Source of the DNA: a virus
Strand: one strand, 5' to 3'
Length of the DNA stretch: 27,101 bases
Virus record (IMG/VR): IMGVR_UViG_3300047553_000152
Location: 1 to 27,101 of that record
The translations under genes and the position numbers were made by a program. The notes under the pieces were generated by a model. The model was not told the origin of the DNA. It was given only the letters and a program-made list of their open reading frames with translations, and ran no database searches. Every line of letters starts with the position of its first letter. Position 1 is the first letter of the stretch. Below are positions 3,206-21,684 of this stretch, piece by piece.

Positions 3206-5710
3206 GTGAAATTCTACACGAATGTTTTGGTCTATGGTAAGTCGATCCTCTATCGCGGTGTTGAAGATGGCAAGCGAGTTGCTCGCCGCATAGAGTATCG
3301 GCCTACATTCTATGTGCCCGCAAAGGGACGCTCTGAGTGGCGTACCCTTTCGGGCGACTACGTTGAACCCATCGAACCTGGGAACATCAACGATGCGCGT
3401 GAATTCATCGAGAGATACAAGGACGTCGATACGTTTCCCATCTATGGTCTCAATCGTTATGAATATGCGTTCATCTCTGATGAATTCCCAGACGATGTCT
3501 TTTGGGATAGGGATCAGGTCAGGGTCTGCTATCTTGATATCGAGGTTGCTTCTGATGATGGCTTCCCCGAGCCAGCAGATGCTAACAAAGAAATTACAGC
3601 CATCACCGTAAAGACTGGTGACTACACTCACACATATGGCTGTGGCGAATACACTCCACATAAGACTGGTCTTGGATACAGCAAGTGTTCTAACGAACAT
3701 GAGTTGTTGACTAGGTTCGTCAATGACTTCAGTGAATCACATCCAGATATCATCACTGGTTGGAACGTCAAGTTCTTTGACATTCCGTATCTCGTAAATC
3801 GTATCACGCGTGTGCTGGGCGAAGACTACACTATCAAGCTTTCGCCATGGAAGAAGGTGAGTCAGCGCGAGACTACGATTATGAATCGTGTACAGATTCA
3901 CTTCGACATCTTCGGTATCGCCATCCTTGACTATCTTGATCTGTACAAGAAGTACAGCTTCACACCTCAAGAGTCGTATAGGCTTGACCATGTTGCTTCT
4001 ATGGAACTGGGCGAGAAGAAGATCGACTACTCTGAGTTCGCTAATCTTCATGAGTTGTACAAGCATGACTTCCAGAAGTTTATCGAGTATAACATCAAGG
4101 ACGTTGAGCTTGTCGAGAAGCTAAACGATAAGGGCAGGTTGATTGAGCTTGCTCTGACTCTTGCGTACGATAACAAGGTTAACTATGATGATGTGTTCTC
4201 ACAGGTTCGTATGTGGGATACCATCATCTACAACCATCTGAAGAAGAGCAAGATCGTCATTCCTCAGGCTAAACATGGCGAGAAGGCTGCAGCATACGAA
4301 GGCGCATATGTCAAGGATCCGCTCGTTGGTATGCATAACTGGGTTGCTTCGTTTGATCTGAACAGTCTGTATCCGCACTTGATTATGCAGTACAACATCT
4401 CACCAGAGACGCTGACTCATGTCAATGGTATTCCTACGGTTGATGTTCTGACTCTGCTAAATCAAACTCATGATCTTTCTGCGCTCAAGGAATTGGAAGT
4501 TACGCTGACGCCGAACAATCAGTTCTTCAAGACCAAGAAGCAGGGTTTCCTGCCGAAGATCATGGATACGATGTACAAGGATCGTAGCCGATACAAGAAG
4601 ATGGCTATGGACGCCAAGAAGAAGATTGAGAAGGTTCGTGATGACAAGGTTCAGGTTGAGTATCTCGAGAAGGAAATCGCCAGATACAATAACCTGCAGA
4701 TGGCAAAGAAGGTATCTCTGAACTCAGCTTATGGCGCGATTGGCAATAAATACTTCCGCTTCTTCGACATCCGCATCGCCGAAGCAATCACTCTATCGGG
4801 TCAGCTGTCGATTCGCTGGATTGAGAACAAGCTTAATGGCTACATGAGCAAACTTGTACAGAAGGAACAGGACTATGTCATTGCGTCAGATACTGATTCC
4901 ATTTATCTCAACCTTGCTCCACTGGTTGATAAGTTCATACCGAAGGAAAAATCGACTGCTGACGTTATCAGACTCATGGACAAAATCTGTGAAGATAAGG
5001 TTCAACCTTTTATTGATAAGTCTTATCAAGAGCTTGCTGACTACGTTAACGCATATAGCCAAAAGATGCAAATGAAGCGAGAGACCCTCGCCAATAAAGC
5101 AATCTGGACTGCGAAGAAGCGATATATCTTGAATGCGTACAACGTCGAAGGCGTTGAGTATGCAGAGCCAAAGCTCAAGATCATGGGTCTTGAGGCGATC
5201 AAGTCGTCAACTCCTGCTGCTTGCCGTGACAAGATTAAGCAAGCGTTCAAGATTATCATGAGCCAAGACGAAGCTAGGATGATCTCTTTCATTGAGCAGT
5301 TCAGAGAAGAATTCAGGAAGCTGCCCATTGAGGATATTTCGTTCCCTCGCTCTGTGAATGGTGTGACTGAATACTATGACGCTCTACACATCTTCAAGAA
5401 GGGTACACCTATTCACGTCAAGGGCGTGCTGGTGTATAACCATGCGATCAACGAGCGCAAACTAAATAAGAAGTATCAACTCATCAAAGAAGGTGAGAAG
5501 ATCAAGTTTTGCTATCTCAAGCAGCCTAATCCGTTCAAGAACAATACTATAGCGTTCTTGAATGCTCTGCCTAAAGAGTTGCGTGTTGAAGAGTTTATTG
5601 ACTATGACATGCAGCTAGAGAAGTCGTTCATAGAACCACTTAAGATTATTCTTGATTGCATTGGATGGCGAGTTGAACACACAGCTACTCTAGAGGATTT
5701 ATTCTCATGA
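3206..5710 (+). CDS. 43: DNA polymerase, family B, T4 gp43 type
   Basis: An 834-residue replicative polymerase (T4 gp43 has 898). A GTG start two bases after the previous stop gives the expected N-terminus. The proofreading exonuclease is intact: Exo I LDIEV (D111, E113), Exo II KFFDIPYL (D192) and Exo III YNIKD (Y295, D299). Polymerase motif A is DLNSLYPHLI (D384), motif B is K502 to NSAYG (N506), and motif C is DTDS (D562, D564). A KKRY motif follows in the palm-thumb region. The C-terminal end TLEDLFS matches the short peptide with which these enzymes bind the gp45 sliding clamp. All catalytic residues are present. It works with gp41, gp61 and UvsX encoded nearby. Confidence 0.98.
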   Translation: MKFYTNVLVYGKSILYRGVEDGKRVARRIEYRPTFYVPAKGRSEWRTLSGDYVEPIEPGNINDAREFIERYKDVDTFPIYGLNRYEYAFISDEFPDDVFWDRDQVRVCYLDIEVASDDGFPEPADANKEITAITVKTGDYTHTYGCGEYTPHKTGLGYSKCSNEHELLTRFVNDFSESHPDIITGWNVKFFDIPYLVNRITRVLGEDYTIKLSPWKKVSQRETTIMNRVQIHFDIFGIAILDYLDLYKKYSFTPQESYRLDHVASMELGEKKIDYSEFANLHELYKHDFQKFIEYNIKDVELVEKLNDKGRLIELALTLAYDNKVNYDDVFSQVRMWDTIIYNHLKKSKIVIPQAKHGEKAAAYEGAYVKDPLVGMHNWVASFDLNSLYPHLIMQYNISPETLTHVNGIPTVDVLTLLNQTHDLSALKELEVTLTPNNQFFKTKKQGFLPKIMDTMYKDRSRYKKMAMDAKKKIEKVRDDKVQVEYLEKEIARYNNLQMAKKVSLNSAYGAIGNKYFRFFDIRIAEAITLSGQLSIRWIENKLNGYMSKLVQKEQDYVIASDTDSIYLNLAPLVDKFIPKEKSTADVIRLMDKICEDKVQPFIDKSYQELADYVNAYSQKMQMKRETLANKAIWTAKKRYILNAYNVEGVEYAEPKLKIMGLEAIKSSTPAACRDKIKQAFKIIMSQDEARMISFIEQFREEFRKLPIEDISFPRSVNGVTEYYDALHIFKKGTPIHVKGVLVYNHAINERKLNKKYQLIKEGEKIKFCYLKQPNPFKNNTIAFLNALPKELRVEEFIDYDMQLEKSFIEPLKIILDCIGWRVEHTATLEDLFS

Positions 5711-14435: not shown

Positions 14436-14468
14436 ATGTTAAAGTTCAAGAGTTTTCTCTCAGAAGCC
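14436..14468 (+). other. Capsid-targeting-like signal and protease junction 1
   Basis: Codons 1-11 encode MLKFKSFLSE/A. T4 internal proteins start with a similar decapeptide (lysine, aromatic, hydrophobic, then I/L-x-E), which targets the prohead and is removed by gp21 after the Glu. The matching pattern and its recurrence at 17266 and 20834 are seen here; the function is inferred. Confidence 0.6.
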
Positions 14469-15569
14469 AAATCAGAAGCAGGTGGTATCCTACACCTGGA
14501 ACATCCAGCAGACAGACTATTTGATGGACCTGAGGCCACCGCTCACGCAATCAAAACTCTAAGAGGCATTGTCAGTGGCCGAGTACCAATTACTCGTAAG
14601 ATCGACGACAAGATGTCGTTCCATGCTATTCGCCGCCAAGACGGTAAGGTCGGCGTCAAGTATAAAGGCTCTGGCGCCACCTACAATTTTAGCCAGTCAG
14701 ATATTGACCAGCAGCATGCTGATAAACCATATCTGGCAAATACACTCAAACACGTTCTAAAGCACATTGGTAAAGTTCTACCAGACGATCCTGGTGAGTA
14801 TCAGGGTGGGTATATGTCCACGCCTGAGGATAGAACACAGCATGGTGCTTATATAAGTCATACACCAAACACAGTTCAATACATGGCGCATCAAAATACC
14901 CCAGAGGGAGCCAGACTAAAAGCGTCAAAATTAAGCGTAACAATACACAGTAAATTAACAGGTCAAAATAGAACTGCCGAGCCTATTACAGATACTTCAG
15001 CGTTCAAAGAACACCCAGATGTTCATATGGTAAGACATACAGTAGATCCATTAGAAAGACAGTTAACTGCATATCATAAACAAGAAATAGTAGACAATAT
15101 TAGGCAGGCTGAGACATTATTAGATACACACGATCACAGTCATCATGAAGGTCATGCAGAAACACTACGTTCATACATTAATTCTACAGTAAGCAGCGGC
15201 GAGGCTCCCTCTGTTCAAGGTTACAAGACGCATTTAGAAATTAAGCATAACAAGCAAATAGAAAAGCTGAAGTCTGACAAAGGTAGGGCTGCGGCTGAAC
15301 AAAAGAAAATGGCGATTCTTAATCACGTTGATAAGAACGCAATGAAATTCAAAAAGACTTTAGCTATCCATGGTCATCTTCAGACTGCGGCAAATAAATT
15401 ATCTGATGCAATTAATCGCAATGGTTCTGGCGGTTTCATTACAAAAATGAATGGCATAATCGGTGGTGGCGAAGGCTTCGTGGGTGGTGGTCTTAAGATA
15501 GTAAACAGAACTGAGTTTACACGCCAAAATAACATGCGTAGAGAAATGCTGAGAGCACAAAATGAGTAA
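14436..15569 (+). CDS. Capsid-targeted ligase-like (nucleotidyltransferase-fold) protein
   Basis: A 377-residue protein with a likely capsid-targeting N-terminus, MLKFKSFLSE, then A11 (junction L-S-E/A). Residues about 20-130 resemble a phage family (as I recall annotated DUF6267) with the layout of an ATP/RNA-ligase adenylation domain: KIDD (K55-D58) in place of the usual KxDG, VKYKGSGATYN as the second strand pair, and EYQGGYM (121-127) where related phage proteins have a YQGDLM-like motif. The rest is helical and charged, ending with a glycine-rich segment. The changed Gly58 and acidic motif make catalysis doubtful. I infer that it is packed in the head and perhaps acts on DNA ends, or is a structural remnant. 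Confidence 0.7.
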   Translation: MLKFKSFLSEAKSEAGGILHLEHPADRLFDGPEATAHAIKTLRGIVSGRVPITRKIDDKMSFHAIRRQDGKVGVKYKGSGATYNFSQSDIDQQHADKPYLANTLKHVLKHIGKVLPDDPGEYQGGYMSTPEDRTQHGAYISHTPNTVQYMAHQNTPEGARLKASKLSVTIHSKLTGQNRTAEPITDTSAFKEHPDVHMVRHTVDPLERQLTAYHKQEIVDNIRQAETLLDTHDHSHHEGHAETLRSYINSTVSSGEAPSVQGYKTHLEIKHNKQIEKLKSDKGRAAAEQKKMAILNHVDKNAMKFKKTLAIHGHLQTAANKLSDAINRNGSGGFITKMNGIIGGGEGFVGGGLKIVNRTEFTRQNNMRREMLRAQNE

Positions 15570-17544
15570 AGCAACGTTCACTTTTGGTCGCTTTAACCCT
15601 CCGACTGAGATCGGTCATGGTAAACTCATCGACGCAGTTAAGGCGCATGCTGAGAAGACTGGTGGGCAACACTACATCTTCCCATCGCACACACAAGATA
15701 AAAAGAAAAACCCTCTGACGCATAGCGATAAAGTTGGCGCTATGCGTAGTATGTTCAAGGATACGAATGTAGTTTCTGATCCTGGAATCCACTCAGCTAT
15801 CCATGCCATGCAACATCTGCAGAGACAGGGTCACGATCACGTGACTATGGTGGTTGGTTCTGATAGAGTCGAGAACTTCAAGAAGCTTCTCAATGACTAC
15901 AATGGCAAAGAATACAACATCAAGAATATAGAAGTCAAGTCAGCGGGACATAGAGACCCAGACGCCGAAGGTGCTTCTGGTATGTCAGCATCAAAGCTGA
16001 GAGATCTGGTCAAGGCTGGCAAGAAAGACGAGTTTATTAGTCACTACTCCAATAGAAAGTTGGGCGAAAAAATCCACGATAAGGTACATAAAGCAATGAA
16101 CGAATCAGTTAAGGCCATGTTTATCATGGGTGGCCCTGGAAGCGGTAAAGATTACGTTATCAATAACATCCTCAACAGGTTTGACCTGGTAGAAGTTCAG
16201 TTGGATCAAATCCTAACTGGATCTGCCAGAGAACTATTAGAGTCTAATGCCAACCTTCTGATCAACGCACCATCTGACATGGAAAAGATTGAGCTAGTTC
16301 GCGCAGCTCTAGGCGAAGACTATGAGTATCTCTACACTCTAGTTTCAGTTACCAACAAGGTCAGCCGCGAAAGAAACGAAGATAGAACGAAGCCTATGAA
16401 CGAATCAGTTCGTATTCGTAAGTGGATAGACGCGGAAAATACAGTTAACAAGTTTGAGAACATGTTTGTGTTCAAGAACTCTATCAATCTGAAAGAGGCA
16501 TCAGAGTCAGAGCTAGAATCTTTCAAAGTTCAAATTGCTGACTATCTTGGTTTCTGTGTTGGCAATGGCCTTGAAATGAACGAAGATCTAAGAACGTGGT
16601 TCAAGCAAAAGTGGGTTAGATTTGATACCAAAGGAAAGATTAAAGGTGACTGCGCCAGAGAAGAAGGCGAGGGTAAGCCAAAGTGCCTACCCAAAGCGCA
16701 AGCACAAAATATGTCCAAGAGAGATAGAGCGAAAGCAGCGCTGAGAAAAAGAAGACAAGATCCTAATCCAGATCGTCAAGGCGCACCAATTATGGTAGCG
16801 ACAAAAGAAGAAGTTGTACTGGAAGCAAACAAGCCAACAAACCCTGAACTTTGGAGCAAAGCAAAGAGCTTGGCTAGACAGAAGTTTGATGTCTATCCAT
16901 CGGCATATGCTAATGGTTGGGCTGCCAAGTGGTACAAGTCCAAGGGTGGTGGTTGGAAGAGCGTTTCAGAATCTACTGATGAACTAGATGAAGCCTGCTG
17001 GAAAGGATACAAGGCTGTTGGAATGAAGATGAAGAATGGTCGCAGAGTTCCTAACTGCGTTCCAGTCGGAGAAGCCACGGTAGATCCTGCTGATCAACTA
17101 GATGTTAACACACAACCAACTCTAGTGGCTGCTTCTGAAACAAAGAAAAAGAAAAAACTAAAAGTTCCACCGAATGATATCAACGCCAGAATTGACGGCG
17201 CTGGTGGATATTCAATTGGCGGACTAACTCAAACATCATCAGTTTATTCTGAAGAGGAAGAATCAATGCTAAAGTTCAAAGATTTCGTAAATGAAGCCAC
17301 ACATAACGGCAGAGAAGTTCCTCTAAATAAGCCTATGAAGGGTGATGTTAAAAAGTCCAAGGTGTATGTGAGAGACCCATCGACTGGAAACATCAAGAAA
17401 GTAAACTTCGGTGATAAGAGCCTCTCAATTAAGAGCCACATTCCTGCTCGTAAGAAGTCGTATTGCGCGAGATCTGGCGGACAAGGAAATACAACAGATA
17501 AGACCAAGGCTAACTATTGGTCGCGCAGAGCATGGAAGTGCTAG
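15562..17544 (+). CDS. Modular polyprotein: NMNAT-like domain, P-loop kinase-like domain and small basic modules
   Basis: A 660-residue mosaic overlapping the previous stop by 8 bases. Residues 1-165 are a cytidylyltransferase/NMNAT-like domain: GRFNPPTEIGH (one residue longer than the usual TxGH loop), VVGSDRV and MSASKLR. Residues about 184-300 are a P-loop domain (GGPGSGKD, 190-197). Then come small modules: a DTKGKIKGDC...KCLP cysteine module (about 355-400), a FDVYPSAYANGWAAKWYKSK module (about 428-465), a CWKGYKAVGMK...NCVP module (479-501), and an RKKSYCARSGGQG...RRAWKC end. Most are preceded by a hydrophobic-x-E junction followed by A or S (E181, E281, E312, E421, E477, E504, E578). 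The first two domains together recall NadR, but the kinase substrate is unknown. I infer prohead-protease processing and packaging. Confidence 0.8.
   Translation: MSKATFTFGRFNPPTEIGHGKLIDAVKAHAEKTGGQHYIFPSHTQDKKKNPLTHSDKVGAMRSMFKDTNVVSDPGIHSAIHAMQHLQRQGHDHVTMVVGSDRVENFKKLLNDYNGKEYNIKNIEVKSAGHRDPDAEGASGMSASKLRDLVKAGKKDEFISHYSNRKLGEKIHDKVHKAMNESVKAMFIMGGPGSGKDYVINNILNRFDLVEVQLDQILTGSARELLESNANLLINAPSDMEKIELVRAALGEDYEYLYTLVSVTNKVSRERNEDRTKPMNESVRIRKWIDAENTVNKFENMFVFKNSINLKEASESELESFKVQIADYLGFCVGNGLEMNEDLRTWFKQKWVRFDTKGKIKGDCAREEGEGKPKCLPKAQAQNMSKRDRAKAALRKRRQDPNPDRQGAPIMVATKEEVVLEANKPTNPELWSKAKSLARQKFDVYPSAYANGWAAKWYKSKGGGWKSVSESTDELDEACWKGYKAVGMKMKNGRRVPNCVPVGEATVDPADQLDVNTQPTLVAASETKKKKKLKVPPNDINARIDGAGGYSIGGLTQTSSVYSEEEESMLKFKDFVNEATHNGREVPLNKPMKGDVKKSKVYVRDPSTGNIKKVNFGDKSLSIKSHIPARKKSYCARSGGQGNTTDKTKANYWSRRAWKC
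17254..17298 (+). other. Embedded ribosome binding site, ATG and capsid-targeting-like signal
   Basis: Inside the 660-residue frame, GAGGAAG (17254-17260) sits five bases before an in-frame ATG at 17266. That ATG begins MLKFKDFVNE/A, nearly identical to the N-termini at 14436 and 20834. The site could start a separate 92-residue protein (17266-17544) or mark an old gene fusion. Confidence 0.6.
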
Positions 17545-17553
17545 GGGATAAAA

Positions 17554-18054
17554 ATGATTGACAAATCAGCGATTAAAAAGAAACTTATTGAAAGAAAGAT
17601 GAACGAAGCAGTAGAAGATGCCGCTCTAGTCACTCAGCTGAACAAGGTTCTAGCTGACACCATGATCTTTTATTTCAAGGCGCATAGCTTTCATTGGAAC
17701 GTAGAAGGTCCAAACTTCAACGATTACCATGCATTCTTTGCCACCGTTTACACTCAGACGTTCGCTAACCTAGATCCTCTAGCTGAATACGTTCGCCAGC
17801 TTGGTCAGTATGCGCCAAGTTCACTTGGCCAGCTGATCAATACGGCAAATCTGGTGGAACTAAATGGTAAGCCATCTGGTCCAACCGCGATGTTTAGCGC
17901 ACTCAAGGCTGACAATGACAATATCATGATTGGCCTTGGAGTCTGCCGCAGAACTGCCGAACAGGGTGGATTCTCAGACATCGCTAATTTCCTAGATGAA
18001 ATGATCTCGGCTCATAGAAAACTGGGCTGGATGCTAGACTCACTTCTTAAATAA
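17554..18054 (+). CDS. dps: Dps-like ferritin with intact ferroxidase site
   Basis: A 166-residue four-helix protein of the Dps family (DNA protection during starvation), with a ribosome binding site GGGGATA before its ATG. The diagnostic stretch is FHWNVEGPNF followed by DYH and LDPLAEYVRQLG. The dinuclear iron residues H47, H59, D74 and E78 have exactly the spacing of E. coli Dps (H51, H63, D78, E82). It should form a dodecamer that oxidises and stores iron with peroxide. The N-terminus is lysine-rich (KKKLIERK), then MNE18/A19, which fits a DNA-binding tail or a protease junction like those in its neighbours. It lies between two polyprotein-like genes, which suggests a virion-packaged role. 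Confidence 0.93.
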   Translation: MIDKSAIKKKLIERKMNEAVEDAALVTQLNKVLADTMIFYFKAHSFHWNVEGPNFNDYHAFFATVYTQTFANLDPLAEYVRQLGQYAPSSLGQLINTANLVELNGKPSGPTAMFSALKADNDNIMIGLGVCRRTAEQGGFSDIANFLDEMISAHRKLGWMLDSLLK

Positions 18055-18066
18055 GGTTTAACTAAA

Positions 18067-20271
18067 ATGGCTGTAAAAGTTCCACCACTACTTCACAAGA
18101 TGTCACTGACTAGCCAGAGAGCATGGTACAATAAGAATGCTCCTGACCAGATGCCACCTCACTTGACTACATCAGTAGCAAAGTCGAAATCTGCTAATAC
18201 TGCTGCTCAGCGCGAAAAGGCTAAGAAAGCAGAAGCCCAGGGTCTCAAGGCTTATGGTGCTACCAGAGGAACGGCAACTGGTGGAGAAGGTGGAAACGCT
18301 GACGCTGCTCCAAGAGATACTATTGCTCCGCTAACACCAGAACAGCATGCAAGAAAAGATGCTGAAGCGAGAAAAGCAGCAGCGGCAGCGAAAGCAGCCA
18401 AACCAGTAAGGGAAAAGAAGCCAAAAGCTGTTAAAGCTGCACCACAAAAACCTGTCGATAGACTAGCGTTAATTGCTGCAGCAGCTAAGAAGTCAAGATC
18501 AGCTGCAGGAAGAGCCAAGGCTGCTGCCAAGTTTGACGTTCCTACTGAAGATCCAGATGATCAGGGACACGACGACTATCTAGATCAGCATTATGGAATG
18601 CACCACTACAAAGAAGAAATAGAGGAAACACAAATGGATGATATCTCAGAAGGTAAGATGGGCGAGCTACATGCCGATCTAGTCAGACAAGCCAAGGGTA
18701 TTGCTTTTGGAAAGCGTTACAAAGAAGGCAACATGACTGGTGCATACAAGGCTATTCAGGCTTTGGGCAAGAAGCATGGTATGGAAAATCTTGCTGATCA
18801 TCCAGAAGTTTCTTCTGCGCTTCAGAGAGCCAACGAAGAAGTTGAGTCGGTTGATGAAGCTGCAAAGTGGAGAGAAAATCCTGCTGCACATAATTATGAT
18901 ACTGATGGAACTATACTCCCAAAAACACATGGAAAGATCGACAAGTTGCAAGCAAGAAGTGAGTATTTGTCTAGGGCAAAGGCGCATATTAACAAACTTA
19001 AAAATCCTAAGAATGCCAGAAAACAATTGCAAGCATATGCAAAATCTGCAATAAAGATGTATGGAGAAGAAGTTGAGCTCGAAGAAGCTGCTTACACAGG
19101 CAAGGGAAACCACAGACCAGGTTGGATGCTTCGTGCTGATCCTGAGTTGAAGAAAAAAGTTGACGCAAATATCAAAGCCGCAAAACTTCGCAAGAAGTAC
19201 ATGGGTAAGACTGGCGAAGAAATTGCTGCTATGAAGAAGGAAGAAGTTGAGCTTGACGAAGCTAAAGACTCTCCATTCATTACCTTCTTCAATACAATTG
19301 CGAATCGTCATGCTGAGTATGCAAAGTATGCGAAGAATAAGAAAGACGCAGCTACTTTCGCTGGTGCAGCTGAAAGAGCAAAACATGCTGCTAAAATGAT
19401 AGAAGCTGGAAAATCGCACGTAGAAGCTATGGCCCATTATGATAATAAGAAAGCCACAAATGAAGAAGTTGAGCAAGTCGATGAGGTAAATTCTCGCCAC
19501 AGCTTTACTTCAGCCCAGGCTGCACTAACACCAAAGTCTTCTGACGTCAAGGCTGCTGTTGGTGCAACTGCCAGAGATAAAGCAAAGACTAACAAATATG
19601 CTCGTCGTATATCAAAAATTACTGGCGGTGAGTATTCGAAACAAGATGTCAAAGATAACCTAAAGAGTCTTGCTAACGAAGAAGTAGAGCAGATTGAAGA
19701 AGCAAGAGTAAACCATCGCGATTTCGCAACAGATGGTGTTATGCATCCTAGCATGGCAAATCATGCTTCTATGAAGACTGGCAATACTACCGATTTTTAC
19801 AGTTCAAAGGATGGCGATAAACTCACTAATGGTAAGGTCATCAAGAACGACGGCAAGCATGTACACATAAGACACGATGGTGAAGTTCACAAGTTCCGCG
19901 TATCAGCAACTGCACCTCACCAGATGCAGTCTGAAGAAGTCGAGTACATTGAAGAAAAACTATCTGCTTCTGATCCTGCCTCAGCATGGATTCATGACTT
20001 CGTACGTTCGAACAATCCTAAATTCTCTGGCAAGACCAAAGAAGAAAGAAAGAACATGGCTCTAGGCGCATACTATGCGGCCAAGAGAGGTAAGGGTATG
20101 AAGGAAGAAGTAGAGCAGGTTGAGGAATCAAGCCACGAAGGTTCTACGCCAACAACAGATAAAGAAAAAGAACTAGCTGCTCATCATGGCGATCCAAAGA
20201 AGATTACCTATGGCGATGTAGTCAAGGCAAGAATCAAATCTGCCAGAGGTGGTAAGAAGAATGGCAATTAA
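18067..20271 (+). CDS. 734-residue basic modular polyprotein with repeated EEVE-type linkers
   Basis: A very long, basic, mostly helical protein. Residues 40-155 are Ala/Lys-rich like histone H1. From about 183 on, small modules are divided by seven linkers of the form EEVE-x-(V/I/L)-(D/E)-E, ending at E264, E340, E398, E473, E545, E630 and E687 and usually followed by A or S. Modules include one ending HPEVSSALQRAN (about 196-256), GNHRPGWMLRADPELKKKV (about 347), a beta-rich segment with HVHIRHDGEVHKF (about 597-610), and a SAWIHDFV...FSGKTKEERKNMALGAYYAAKRGKG module (about 638-677) that I recall from other phage virion proteins. Each linker fits the T4 gp21 protease consensus (I/L-x-E). 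I infer a precursor cut inside the prohead into several peptides. No catalytic motif is seen. Confidence 0.8.
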   Translation: MAVKVPPLLHKMSLTSQRAWYNKNAPDQMPPHLTTSVAKSKSANTAAQREKAKKAEAQGLKAYGATRGTATGGEGGNADAAPRDTIAPLTPEQHARKDAEARKAAAAAKAAKPVREKKPKAVKAAPQKPVDRLALIAAAAKKSRSAAGRAKAAAKFDVPTEDPDDQGHDDYLDQHYGMHHYKEEIEETQMDDISEGKMGELHADLVRQAKGIAFGKRYKEGNMTGAYKAIQALGKKHGMENLADHPEVSSALQRANEEVESVDEAAKWRENPAAHNYDTDGTILPKTHGKIDKLQARSEYLSRAKAHINKLKNPKNARKQLQAYAKSAIKMYGEEVELEEAAYTGKGNHRPGWMLRADPELKKKVDANIKAAKLRKKYMGKTGEEIAAMKKEEVELDEAKDSPFITFFNTIANRHAEYAKYAKNKKDAATFAGAAERAKHAAKMIEAGKSHVEAMAHYDNKKATNEEVEQVDEVNSRHSFTSAQAALTPKSSDVKAAVGATARDKAKTNKYARRISKITGGEYSKQDVKDNLKSLANEEVEQIEEARVNHRDFATDGVMHPSMANHASMKTGNTTDFYSSKDGDKLTNGKVIKNDGKHVHIRHDGEVHKFRVSATAPHQMQSEEVEYIEEKLSASDPASAWIHDFVRSNNPKFSGKTKEERKNMALGAYYAAKRGKGMKEEVEQVEESSHEGSTPTTDKEKELAAHHGDPKKITYGDVVKARIKSARGGKKNGN
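18621..18654 (+). other. Second embedded ribosome binding site and start
   Basis: AGAGGAA (18621-18627) lies six bases before an in-frame ATG at 18634, which encodes MDDISE/G. The short peptide ends in I-S-E/G, a gp21-type junction. It could start a shorter product (residues 190-734) or mark a former gene boundary. The evidence is weaker than at 17266. Confidence 0.4.
18835..20127 (+). repeat. Seven dispersed copies of an EEVE-type linker motif
   Basis: Protein-level repeat copies are encoded at 18835-18858, 19066-19086, 19240-19260, 19462-19485, 19678-19701, 19933-19956 and 20104-20127. Five have the form EEVExφ(D/E)E and two lack the x (EEVELEE, EEVELDE). Distances between copies are about 170-255 bases (58-85 residues). 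The codons vary between copies, so this is not a recent DNA duplication; the protein motif appears to be kept by selection. Confidence 0.85.
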
Positions 20272-20833: not shown

Positions 20834-21295
20834 ATGCTAAAGTTCAAAGAATATCTAAACGAATCAGAAGAACTCCATATTGATATGGACACTGATTTTA
20901 TGATGCAGCATCTAGATAACCTAAATGATGCACTAGAAGCAGTTACGGAAGATCCGTTTCCAAATAGCGCAATCTTTATTAATGCCGTTCGTGGCACGCT
21001 AGAAAGATTCGGCGTTGTTCTACCACCAAACTATGTGATGCCAATGTTGAGCCAGGAAGCCGAGACAGTATACACGCTTGGCGAGAGCAACATGTATCTG
21101 TACATCGTACACAATCTGCACGATGGACTGGTAGAAGGCTATGCTCAGATCGTCAATGAAGACGAACTAAATGATCTAGTAGAGATGAATGGTGAAGAAT
21201 CAGACGAGGAAGAAGATCTAGACGCAGCCAAGCGCGAATGGACTCCTCCTGCTCGTAGAGATGATGACAGCGGGAACACTGACGAATACGCATAA
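20834..21295 (+). CDS. Acidic protein with capsid-targeting-like N-terminus
   Basis: A 153-residue protein whose ATG follows the previous stop directly. It begins MLKFKEYLNE/S, the third copy of the capsid-targeting-like decapeptide. The body is acidic: a helical DTDFMMQHLDNLNDALEAV stretch, a central domain ending MYLYIVHNLHDGLVEGYAQI, then a long acidic tail (EESDEEEDLD). An acidic internal protein among basic ones may be a scaffold or a counter-charge chaperone in the prohead; this is inference. I do not recognise the central domain. Confidence 0.7.
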   Translation: MLKFKEYLNESEELHIDMDTDFMMQHLDNLNDALEAVTEDPFPNSAIFINAVRGTLERFGVVLPPNYVMPMLSQEAETVYTLGESNMYLYIVHNLHDGLVEGYAQIVNEDELNDLVEMNGEESDEEEDLDAAKREWTPPARRDDDSGNTDEYA

Positions 21296-21297
21296 GT

Positions 21298-21684
21298 ATG
21301 TTTGATAATTTGAACGAAGACAATGCTCTAATTTACGCGATTAAGTCATACGAAGGACTCAATTACGTCAAGAGCGAATTTACTAGTGAGTATCGCGTCT
21401 TCGTTTATATTAAAAAGCTTCTGCAAAGATATAGGAAAACAGAAGATCTGAAGCAGAGCTTGGTGCTGAATCATATCATTATGATGTACAATGTGTTCGG
21501 GCAGGAAGCGGGAACTAGGTTATTGTTTTTCAAGATTGACGAGCAGGACTATTCGGCTCTTAAGACCTTCTTGGTGTATTTGAAAAGGATGCCCGAGAAG
21601 GTTCGTGGAATTAATGGGAAGGATATTATCTCTAGCGATATACCCATTGACGTCAAGCTGGCAAATATGTTACGTTCCCTTTAA
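21298..21684 (+). CDS. Conserved T4-like phage protein, function unknown
   Basis: A 128-residue helical protein starting MFDNLNEDNALIYAIKSYEG, two bases after the previous stop. Motifs YIKKLLQRY, LVLNHIIMMYNVFG, EAGTRLLFFKI and LKTFLVYLKRMPE match a family I recall as widely conserved in marine T4-like phages (perhaps DUF7207). No catalytic residues stand out and no function is known to me. There is no capsid-targeting signal, so it closes the internal-protein group and begins a mixed block. Confidence 0.7.
   Translation: MFDNLNEDNALIYAIKSYEGLNYVKSEFTSEYRVFVYIKKLLQRYRKTEDLKQSLVLNHIIMMYNVFGQEAGTRLLFFKIDEQDYSALKTFLVYLKRMPEKVRGINGKDIISSDIPIDVKLANMLRSL

Follow-up and report, generated by a model that had tools for sequence, protein, structure and literature searches.

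Results

The window, by which we mean the whole stretch of DNA analysed, comes from a T4-like phage and is 27,101 bases long (an IMG/VR record). Its genes are ordered gp43, UvsX, a gp41-type helicase and nucleotide-sugar genes, followed by a cluster that holds an ORF for a Dps mini-ferritin (Table 1), and the succession of UvsX, gp41 and a multi-domain cytidylyltransferase protein is the same in Pelagibacter phage HTVC008M. Within the cluster the Dps ORF is part of a tight co-directional array, with the upstream stop codon 9 nt before it and the next start codon 12 nt after it. Scans for sigma-70 promoters and terminators gave no useful signal near the Dps gene, and a search with the T4 late promoter TATAAATA was uninformative, one-mismatch matches numbering 23 against 25.5 expected by chance.

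Table 1. The Dps gene, its parts and its neighbours in the window.
Feature	Coordinates	Strand	Basis
DUF6267 protein, N-terminus MLKFKSFLSE/A of capsid-targeting type	14436..15569	+	Pfam PF19782 (2.5e-36); motif test
Multi-domain protein with a cytidylyltransferase/NMNAT-like domain and others	15562..17544	+	phrog_3041 (2e-51)
In-frame internal ATG, then MLKFKDFVNE/A, within the multi-domain ORF	17266..17295	+	GAGGAAG a few nt upstream
Shine-Dalgarno AGGGGA of the Dps leader start	17543..17548	+	Sequence; 5 nt before the ATG
Dps mini-ferritin ORF, 166 aa	17554..18054	+	Pfam, PHROG, fold match 8ff9, dN/dS
18-aa leader MIDKSAIKKKLIERKMNE, predicted prohead-protease propeptide	17554..17607	+	Junction kept in clade
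Internal ATG (M16) in the MNE motif, candidate second start	17599..17601	+	Weak Shine-Dalgarno; L002 begins MNEL
Ferroxidase ligands H47 (17692-17694), H59 (17728-17730), D74 (17773-17775), E78 (17785-17787)	17692..17787	+	Alignment
Repeat protein, small domains split by EEVExxDE/A-type spacers	18067..20271	+	Sequence; directly downstream of Dps
Small protein, targeting-type N-terminus MLKFKEYLNE/S	20834..21295	+	Motif; syntenic in relatives
Homologue of S-CREM2 gp159 (phrog_407), small and conserved	21298..21684	+	Homology

The Dps protein and its ferroxidase site

The first-pass annotation of this DNA assigned the ORF to the Dps ferritins, and database and fold comparisons bear the assignment out. 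The protein matches Ferritin PF00210 in Pfam (1.7e-17) and PHROG_3636 (3.9e-24), and its AlphaFold2 model (pLDDT 91; helices at residues 4-49, 55-82, 91-94, 109-137 and 141-165) has the four-helix fold with a short BC helix, for which the top Foldseek matches are all Dps. This is a genuine Dps mini-ferritin. Comparison with the related locus L001 gave a dN of 0.021 against a dS of 0.235 (dN/dS 0.09), which indicates that the gene is under purifying selection.

The four ferroxidase ligands are spaced 12, 15 and 4 residues apart, the exact Dps register that had been claimed for them, and are accompanied by W48; the same set of two histidines, an aspartate and a glutamate is kept in all 119 distinct viral Dps that we collected. 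The annotation had passed over a fifth canonical ligand position, that of E. coli D67, which in the window Dps is occupied by alanine (A63, 17740-17742), so that the fifth carboxylate is lacking. Among the 80 nearest cellular Dps this position holds glutamate in 55, methionine in 24 and glutamine in one. It is acidic in only 17 of the 119 viral proteins and in none of the 48 that adjoin terminase or neck genes; the second-site carboxylate usual in cellular Dps is thus missing from 102 of the 119. Since two His, an Asp and a Glu are described as the iron ligands of P. aeruginosa Dps (H37/H49/D64/E68; PMC10002758), and since methionine stands at the fifth position in 24 of the 80 cellular proteins, this carboxylate does not define membership of the family. 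Ferroxidase activity may survive in the window Dps, which has the same four ligands, and may be weakened by the loss of the second-site carboxylate.

P. aeruginosa Dps PA0962 (8ff9) is also the nearest solved structure (rmsd 1.3 Å, TM 0.83-0.88). The two proteins share the fold, the four ligands and the tryptophan; they differ in that PA0962 is chromosomal, has Glu at the position of A63 and has no propeptide-like leader. In the presence of divalent cations PA0962 cuts DNA in vitro (PMC10002758), which raises the question of whether the phage protein is mainly a nuclease acting on host DNA. We consider this very improbable, as the proteins are only ~32% identical and a nuclease packed with phage DNA, or made beside it, would be self-damaging.

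A cluster of proteins with N-termini of capsid-targeting type

Three N-termini near Dps, MLKFKSFLSE/A, MLKFKEYLNE/S and the internal MLKFKDFVNE/A, are built like the capsid-targeting sequence of T4. In T4 this leader is 10-20 residues long and is cut off by gp21 (PMC7411985, PMC7697877), and the motif is reportedly common to IPII and IPIII and not to other core proteins. Across loci with a cluster of this kind, 48 of 586 non-Dps ORFs carried the targeting pattern, as against none of 443 in loci where Dps lies between the terminase genes and 0.3% in shuffled sequences. The earlier description of the surroundings of Dps as an internal-protein cluster is upheld by this enrichment, and also by the detection in virions of a homologue of the adjacent gene.

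That homologue comes from the T4-like cyanophage S-CREM2, whose virions have been analysed by mass spectrometry (PMC10665884) and of whose proteins we tested 218 for the pattern. With a relaxed pattern, four of five matches were virion-detected (Fisher p = 0.011), and with the strict pattern three of four (p = 0.041); the latter figure is the fairer one, because the relaxed pattern was chosen after seeing the N-termini, and the S-CREM2 authors note that co-purification cannot be excluded (PMC10665884). The virion-detected matches are the SAM hydrolase gp6, gp13, the kinase gp14 and the cytidylyltransferase gp154, and non-structural enzymes with T4-type targeting N-termini are thus found in purified virions of T4-like cyanophages. 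The multi-domain protein that adjoins Dps is homologous to gp154 over residues 7-158 (32%, 4e-19) and to gp160, likewise virion-detected, over residues 343-473 (2e-5). S-CREM2 itself has no Dps match, and we found no published virion proteome for a phage carrying a Dps of this family. Between the S-CREM2 terminase genes lie gp136 and gp137, both virion-detected, the former beginning MQTFSMFFSE. The virion-detected Cas9-like nuclease gp12 (OR473000, locus L429) has the sequence LRFASFMAE/A near residue 25, possibly a targeting sequence placed further in.

The further domains of the multi-domain protein are parted by MNE/S, LDE/A and VNE/A junctions. At 17266-17544 this ORF has a Shine-Dalgarno sequence of its own and a complete targeting-type sequence, and with the internal ATG these suggest that the final 92 residues may be a separate product that is packaged. 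The repeat protein downstream of Dps occupies the same position in related loci. Both long neighbours (15562-17544 and 18067-20271) look like strings of small domains with protease-type junctions, as if they were capsid-interior polyproteins, and their domain content differs between the window and L001.

A leader with a conserved protease-type junction

Only the clade of viral Dps to which the window belongs has an N-terminal leader. The leader-bearing proteins placed in our tree (window, L019, L021, L038, L046 and L048) form a single branch (99/99); L336, L337, L339, L343, L345, L346, L351, L354 and L364 came from a further scan and were assigned to the clade by sequence, outside the tree. 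In the window the leader ends MNE/A, with a predicted cut between E18 and A19 (between nucleotides 17607 and 17608), which places a hydrophobic-x-Glu junction of prohead-protease type 18 residues from the start, where 10-20 would be expected. Every leader of the clade has hydrophobic-x-Glu before the Dps core, as MNE/A (window, L001), LSE/S (L364), VQE/A (L019, L351), LKE/E, LNE/E, INE/Q, VTE/Q, VVE/Q, VSE/Q or MKE/Q. The scan with alignment A4 dispelled an impression that the MNE/A tail was unique to the window and L001. In 13 of 13 leaders hydrophobic-x-Glu had a small or polar residue after it, compared with a mean of 6.7 after shuffling (none of 2000 shuffles reached 13), and with Ala or Ser demanded after the glutamate the count was 4 of 13 compared with 1.4 (p = 0.04); these figures are only indicative, since the 13 leaders share kinship and the test overstates their independence. 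The window leader, ..KLIERKMNE/AV, aligns with ..KLIEKKLSE/ST of L364 (65% overall identity), and its codons 7-18 differ from those of L001 only synonymously.

A lysine-rich N-terminal tail binds DNA in E. coli Dps. The leader could be a tail of this sort that coats or condenses phage DNA, the MNE/A being coincidental, and the six Lys or Arg among the 18-19 residues of the window and L364 leaders would suit such a role. The leaders of L019, L351, L021, L336, L339 and L345, of the same clade, have none to two such residues and net charges of -1 to -4, and the junction is still there. As lysines are lost across the clade while hydrophobic-x-Glu stays, the conserved feature is the junction and not the charge, and we regard a DNA-binding purpose as improbable; cleavage at E18 would moreover remove the Lys-rich tail. 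Of the first-pass description, a lysine-rich N-terminus ending in MNE/A, the junction therefore stands as a property of the clade and the lysine-rich character does not.

The resemblance of MNE/A to junctions in neighbouring ORFs, also pointed out in that annotation, was confirmed: [LIVM]NE[AS] occurs five times in five module proteins (~2,090 aa) and nowhere in the other window proteins scanned, so that at the level of sequence the motif is more than chance. Sequence comparison shows the same form at the inferred maturation sites of major capsid proteins in related genomes (LNE/A, LSE/A, MINE/A, LNE/T, LLTE/T and LWE/A), where gp21 itself has ITE/A or ITE/E. Cleaved at E18, the window Dps would begin almost where most phage Dps, which have no leader, begin, just before helix 1. 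The strict targeting pattern, M-x-[FY]-xx-[FYL]-[LIV]-x-E, was found in none of 73 Dps N-termini, and its relaxed form in one sub-lineage only.

M16 is encoded by an ATG, and the tail-less relative L002 starts MNEL; a second start at M16 is possible in the window. The leader is nonetheless most likely translated, given the far better Shine-Dalgarno sequence of the upstream start and the lack of a Met at this position in L364 and other homologous leaders.

Placement and descent of viral Dps

We collected 319 viral loci in five contig scans, and among them they encode 119 distinct Dps cores (<90% identity). The seeds of the scans were T4-like Dps and, in one case, cellular-type Dps, so that the placement counts describe this family and not all phage Dps. 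Fifty-nine of the 119 lie in an internal-protein cluster, assigned by at least one marker gene of the cluster in the retrieved sequence; 45 lie between gp16 and gp17, the genes for the terminase small and large subunits, three directly before the neck gene gp13 and 12 elsewhere, so that 107 are in head, packaging or internal-protein clusters. In the terminase slot, represented by L091, L079, L089 and 42 other distinct loci, the distance from the gp16 stop to the Dps ATG is -23 to +11 nt. In one sub-lineage the gene directly upstream of Dps is small and matches cupins weakly (L039:9700-9984 and equivalents).

The 25 nearest Dps of cellular origin group in a clade of their own (100/100), which argues that the window Dps is not a recent host gene; neither a recent host origin nor the scattered metabolic placement of auxiliary metabolic genes was found. 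A plasmid search gave only ordinary plasmid Dps at ~33%, with no link to the phage proteins. On the tree, the terminase-slot Dps require at least two changes of slot. As judged from these comparisons, the family is an old one among phages, and its genes keep to the company of head and packaging genes.

Placement can be read in another way, in which Dps is purely intracellular: as the product of an accessory gene it would oxidise free iron and protect replicating phage DNA and host machinery from peroxide, its place in a late cluster would reflect timing or an insertion slot, and the leader would stay unprocessed. Such a role is the published reading for the Dps of gut and Lactobacillus phages (PMC8008677, PMC6669764), and in the isolates S-SRM01 and Aeromonas LAh_8 the gene lies among metabolic or other non-head genes. 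The leader is absent from most cluster Dps and from all 45 in the terminase slot, which means that position alone does not imply packaging. In S-PM2 other, unrelated small genes lie between gp16 and gp17, without the targeting motif, so this slot also takes ordinary accessory genes. Against these points stand the 107 of 119 members in head, packaging or internal-protein clusters, the virion-detected homologue of the upstream neighbour, and the conservation of the junction across the leader clade. We hold a purely intracellular role to be the main rival to packaging, a distinct possibility though a less than probable one.

Discussion

Our best explanation of the locus is that Dps is a late, leader-processed protein that is packaged and retained in the head, where it would shield the DNA from iron and peroxide, and we regard this proposal as evenly poised between right and wrong. 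On this reading the gene belongs to the head and internal-protein programme of the phage and is not a recent host-derived metabolic gene. Dps would be made together with the head proteins, and its 18-residue leader would direct it to the core of the prohead; a gp21-type prohead protease would then cut after E18, and the processed protein would stay in the DNA-filled capsid as 12-mers, binding Fe2+ and oxidising it with peroxide, which would reduce the Fenton damage that the packaged DNA suffers. The features of the sequence that support this proposal are the Dps fold, the four ligands, purifying selection, the placement, the junction in the leader clade and the neighbour's homologue in virions. 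More tentatively, at somewhat under even chances, the T4-like lineage may pack a protease-processed mini-ferritin as ferritin-like cargo around the DNA in an HK97-fold shell, guarding the genome, with other Dps of the family aiding DNA packaging from the terminase slot.

The first-pass annotation had also offered injection, by which packaged Dps would enter the next host and protect the DNA on arrival. The tail tube of T4-type phages has a channel narrower than an assembled Dps cage, so that only monomers or dimers could pass. With a cage ~9 nm wide (PMC10002758), injection is less likely than packing, and even though the internal proteins of T4 are injected (PMC3012670, PMC7411985), we give it the slimmest chance of the explanations considered.

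Retention of Dps in the capsid would resemble two known systems. Like T4 IPI-III, the window Dps has a short leader, within the range of 10-20 residues, that ends in hydrophobic-x-Glu, and its gene lies among those for such proteins; it differs in that the cargo is a multimeric metalloenzyme, that the targeting motif's aromatic core is missing from the leader and that packaging is predicted. Encapsulins with ferritin-like cargo would be comparable, by analogy only, as they too hold a ferritin-like protein in an HK97-fold shell by means of a targeting peptide. That peptide is usually C-terminal and uncleaved. Unlike the phage head, encapsulins are cellular nanocompartments without DNA.

If Dps is packaged, the virion would be a viral equivalent of encapsulins loaded with ferritin, and iron would join the things that virions may carry. 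Packaging would also suggest a way in which environmental phages keep Fenton damage to their DNA low outside the host. To our knowledge, no phage particle is known to carry its own iron-oxidising enzyme, and this would be the first. Phage-encoded Dps are themselves already known (PMC8008677, PMC6669764), and we found no literature on Dps with terminase, virions or T4-like phages beyond these papers. The Dps described there, from Gratiaviridae, Flandersviridae and Lactobacillus phages, belong to different phage groups and are read by those papers as intracellular helpers against oxidative stress, with no link drawn to head genes. Packaged proteins of the T4 type are known; the literature searched held no Dps that is tied to head or internal-protein clusters and has a leader of processing type. 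Even without packaging, the fixed tie of an old phage Dps family to the terminase slot and the internal-protein cluster of T4-like phages appears undescribed in that literature, and the placement survey names phages suited to a direct test of virions.

Database names had suggested fusions of Dps to a 'prohead protease' (A0A6J7XDU5, A0A6J7WPK9, A0A6J7WIS1); these names were not relied on, and three further scans gave a single fusion, in L396 (3099-3908, +), where Dps follows a phrog_2859 domain. The same domain forms the N-terminus of the major-capsid-protein ORFs of S-CBS1 and CRP-811; we treat the fusion as an independent lead towards packaging and no more, because PaBG encodes the domain by itself, under the name 'putative DNA-binding protein'. 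On its opposite strand L396 encodes another Dps, a divergent one (3954-4397, -).
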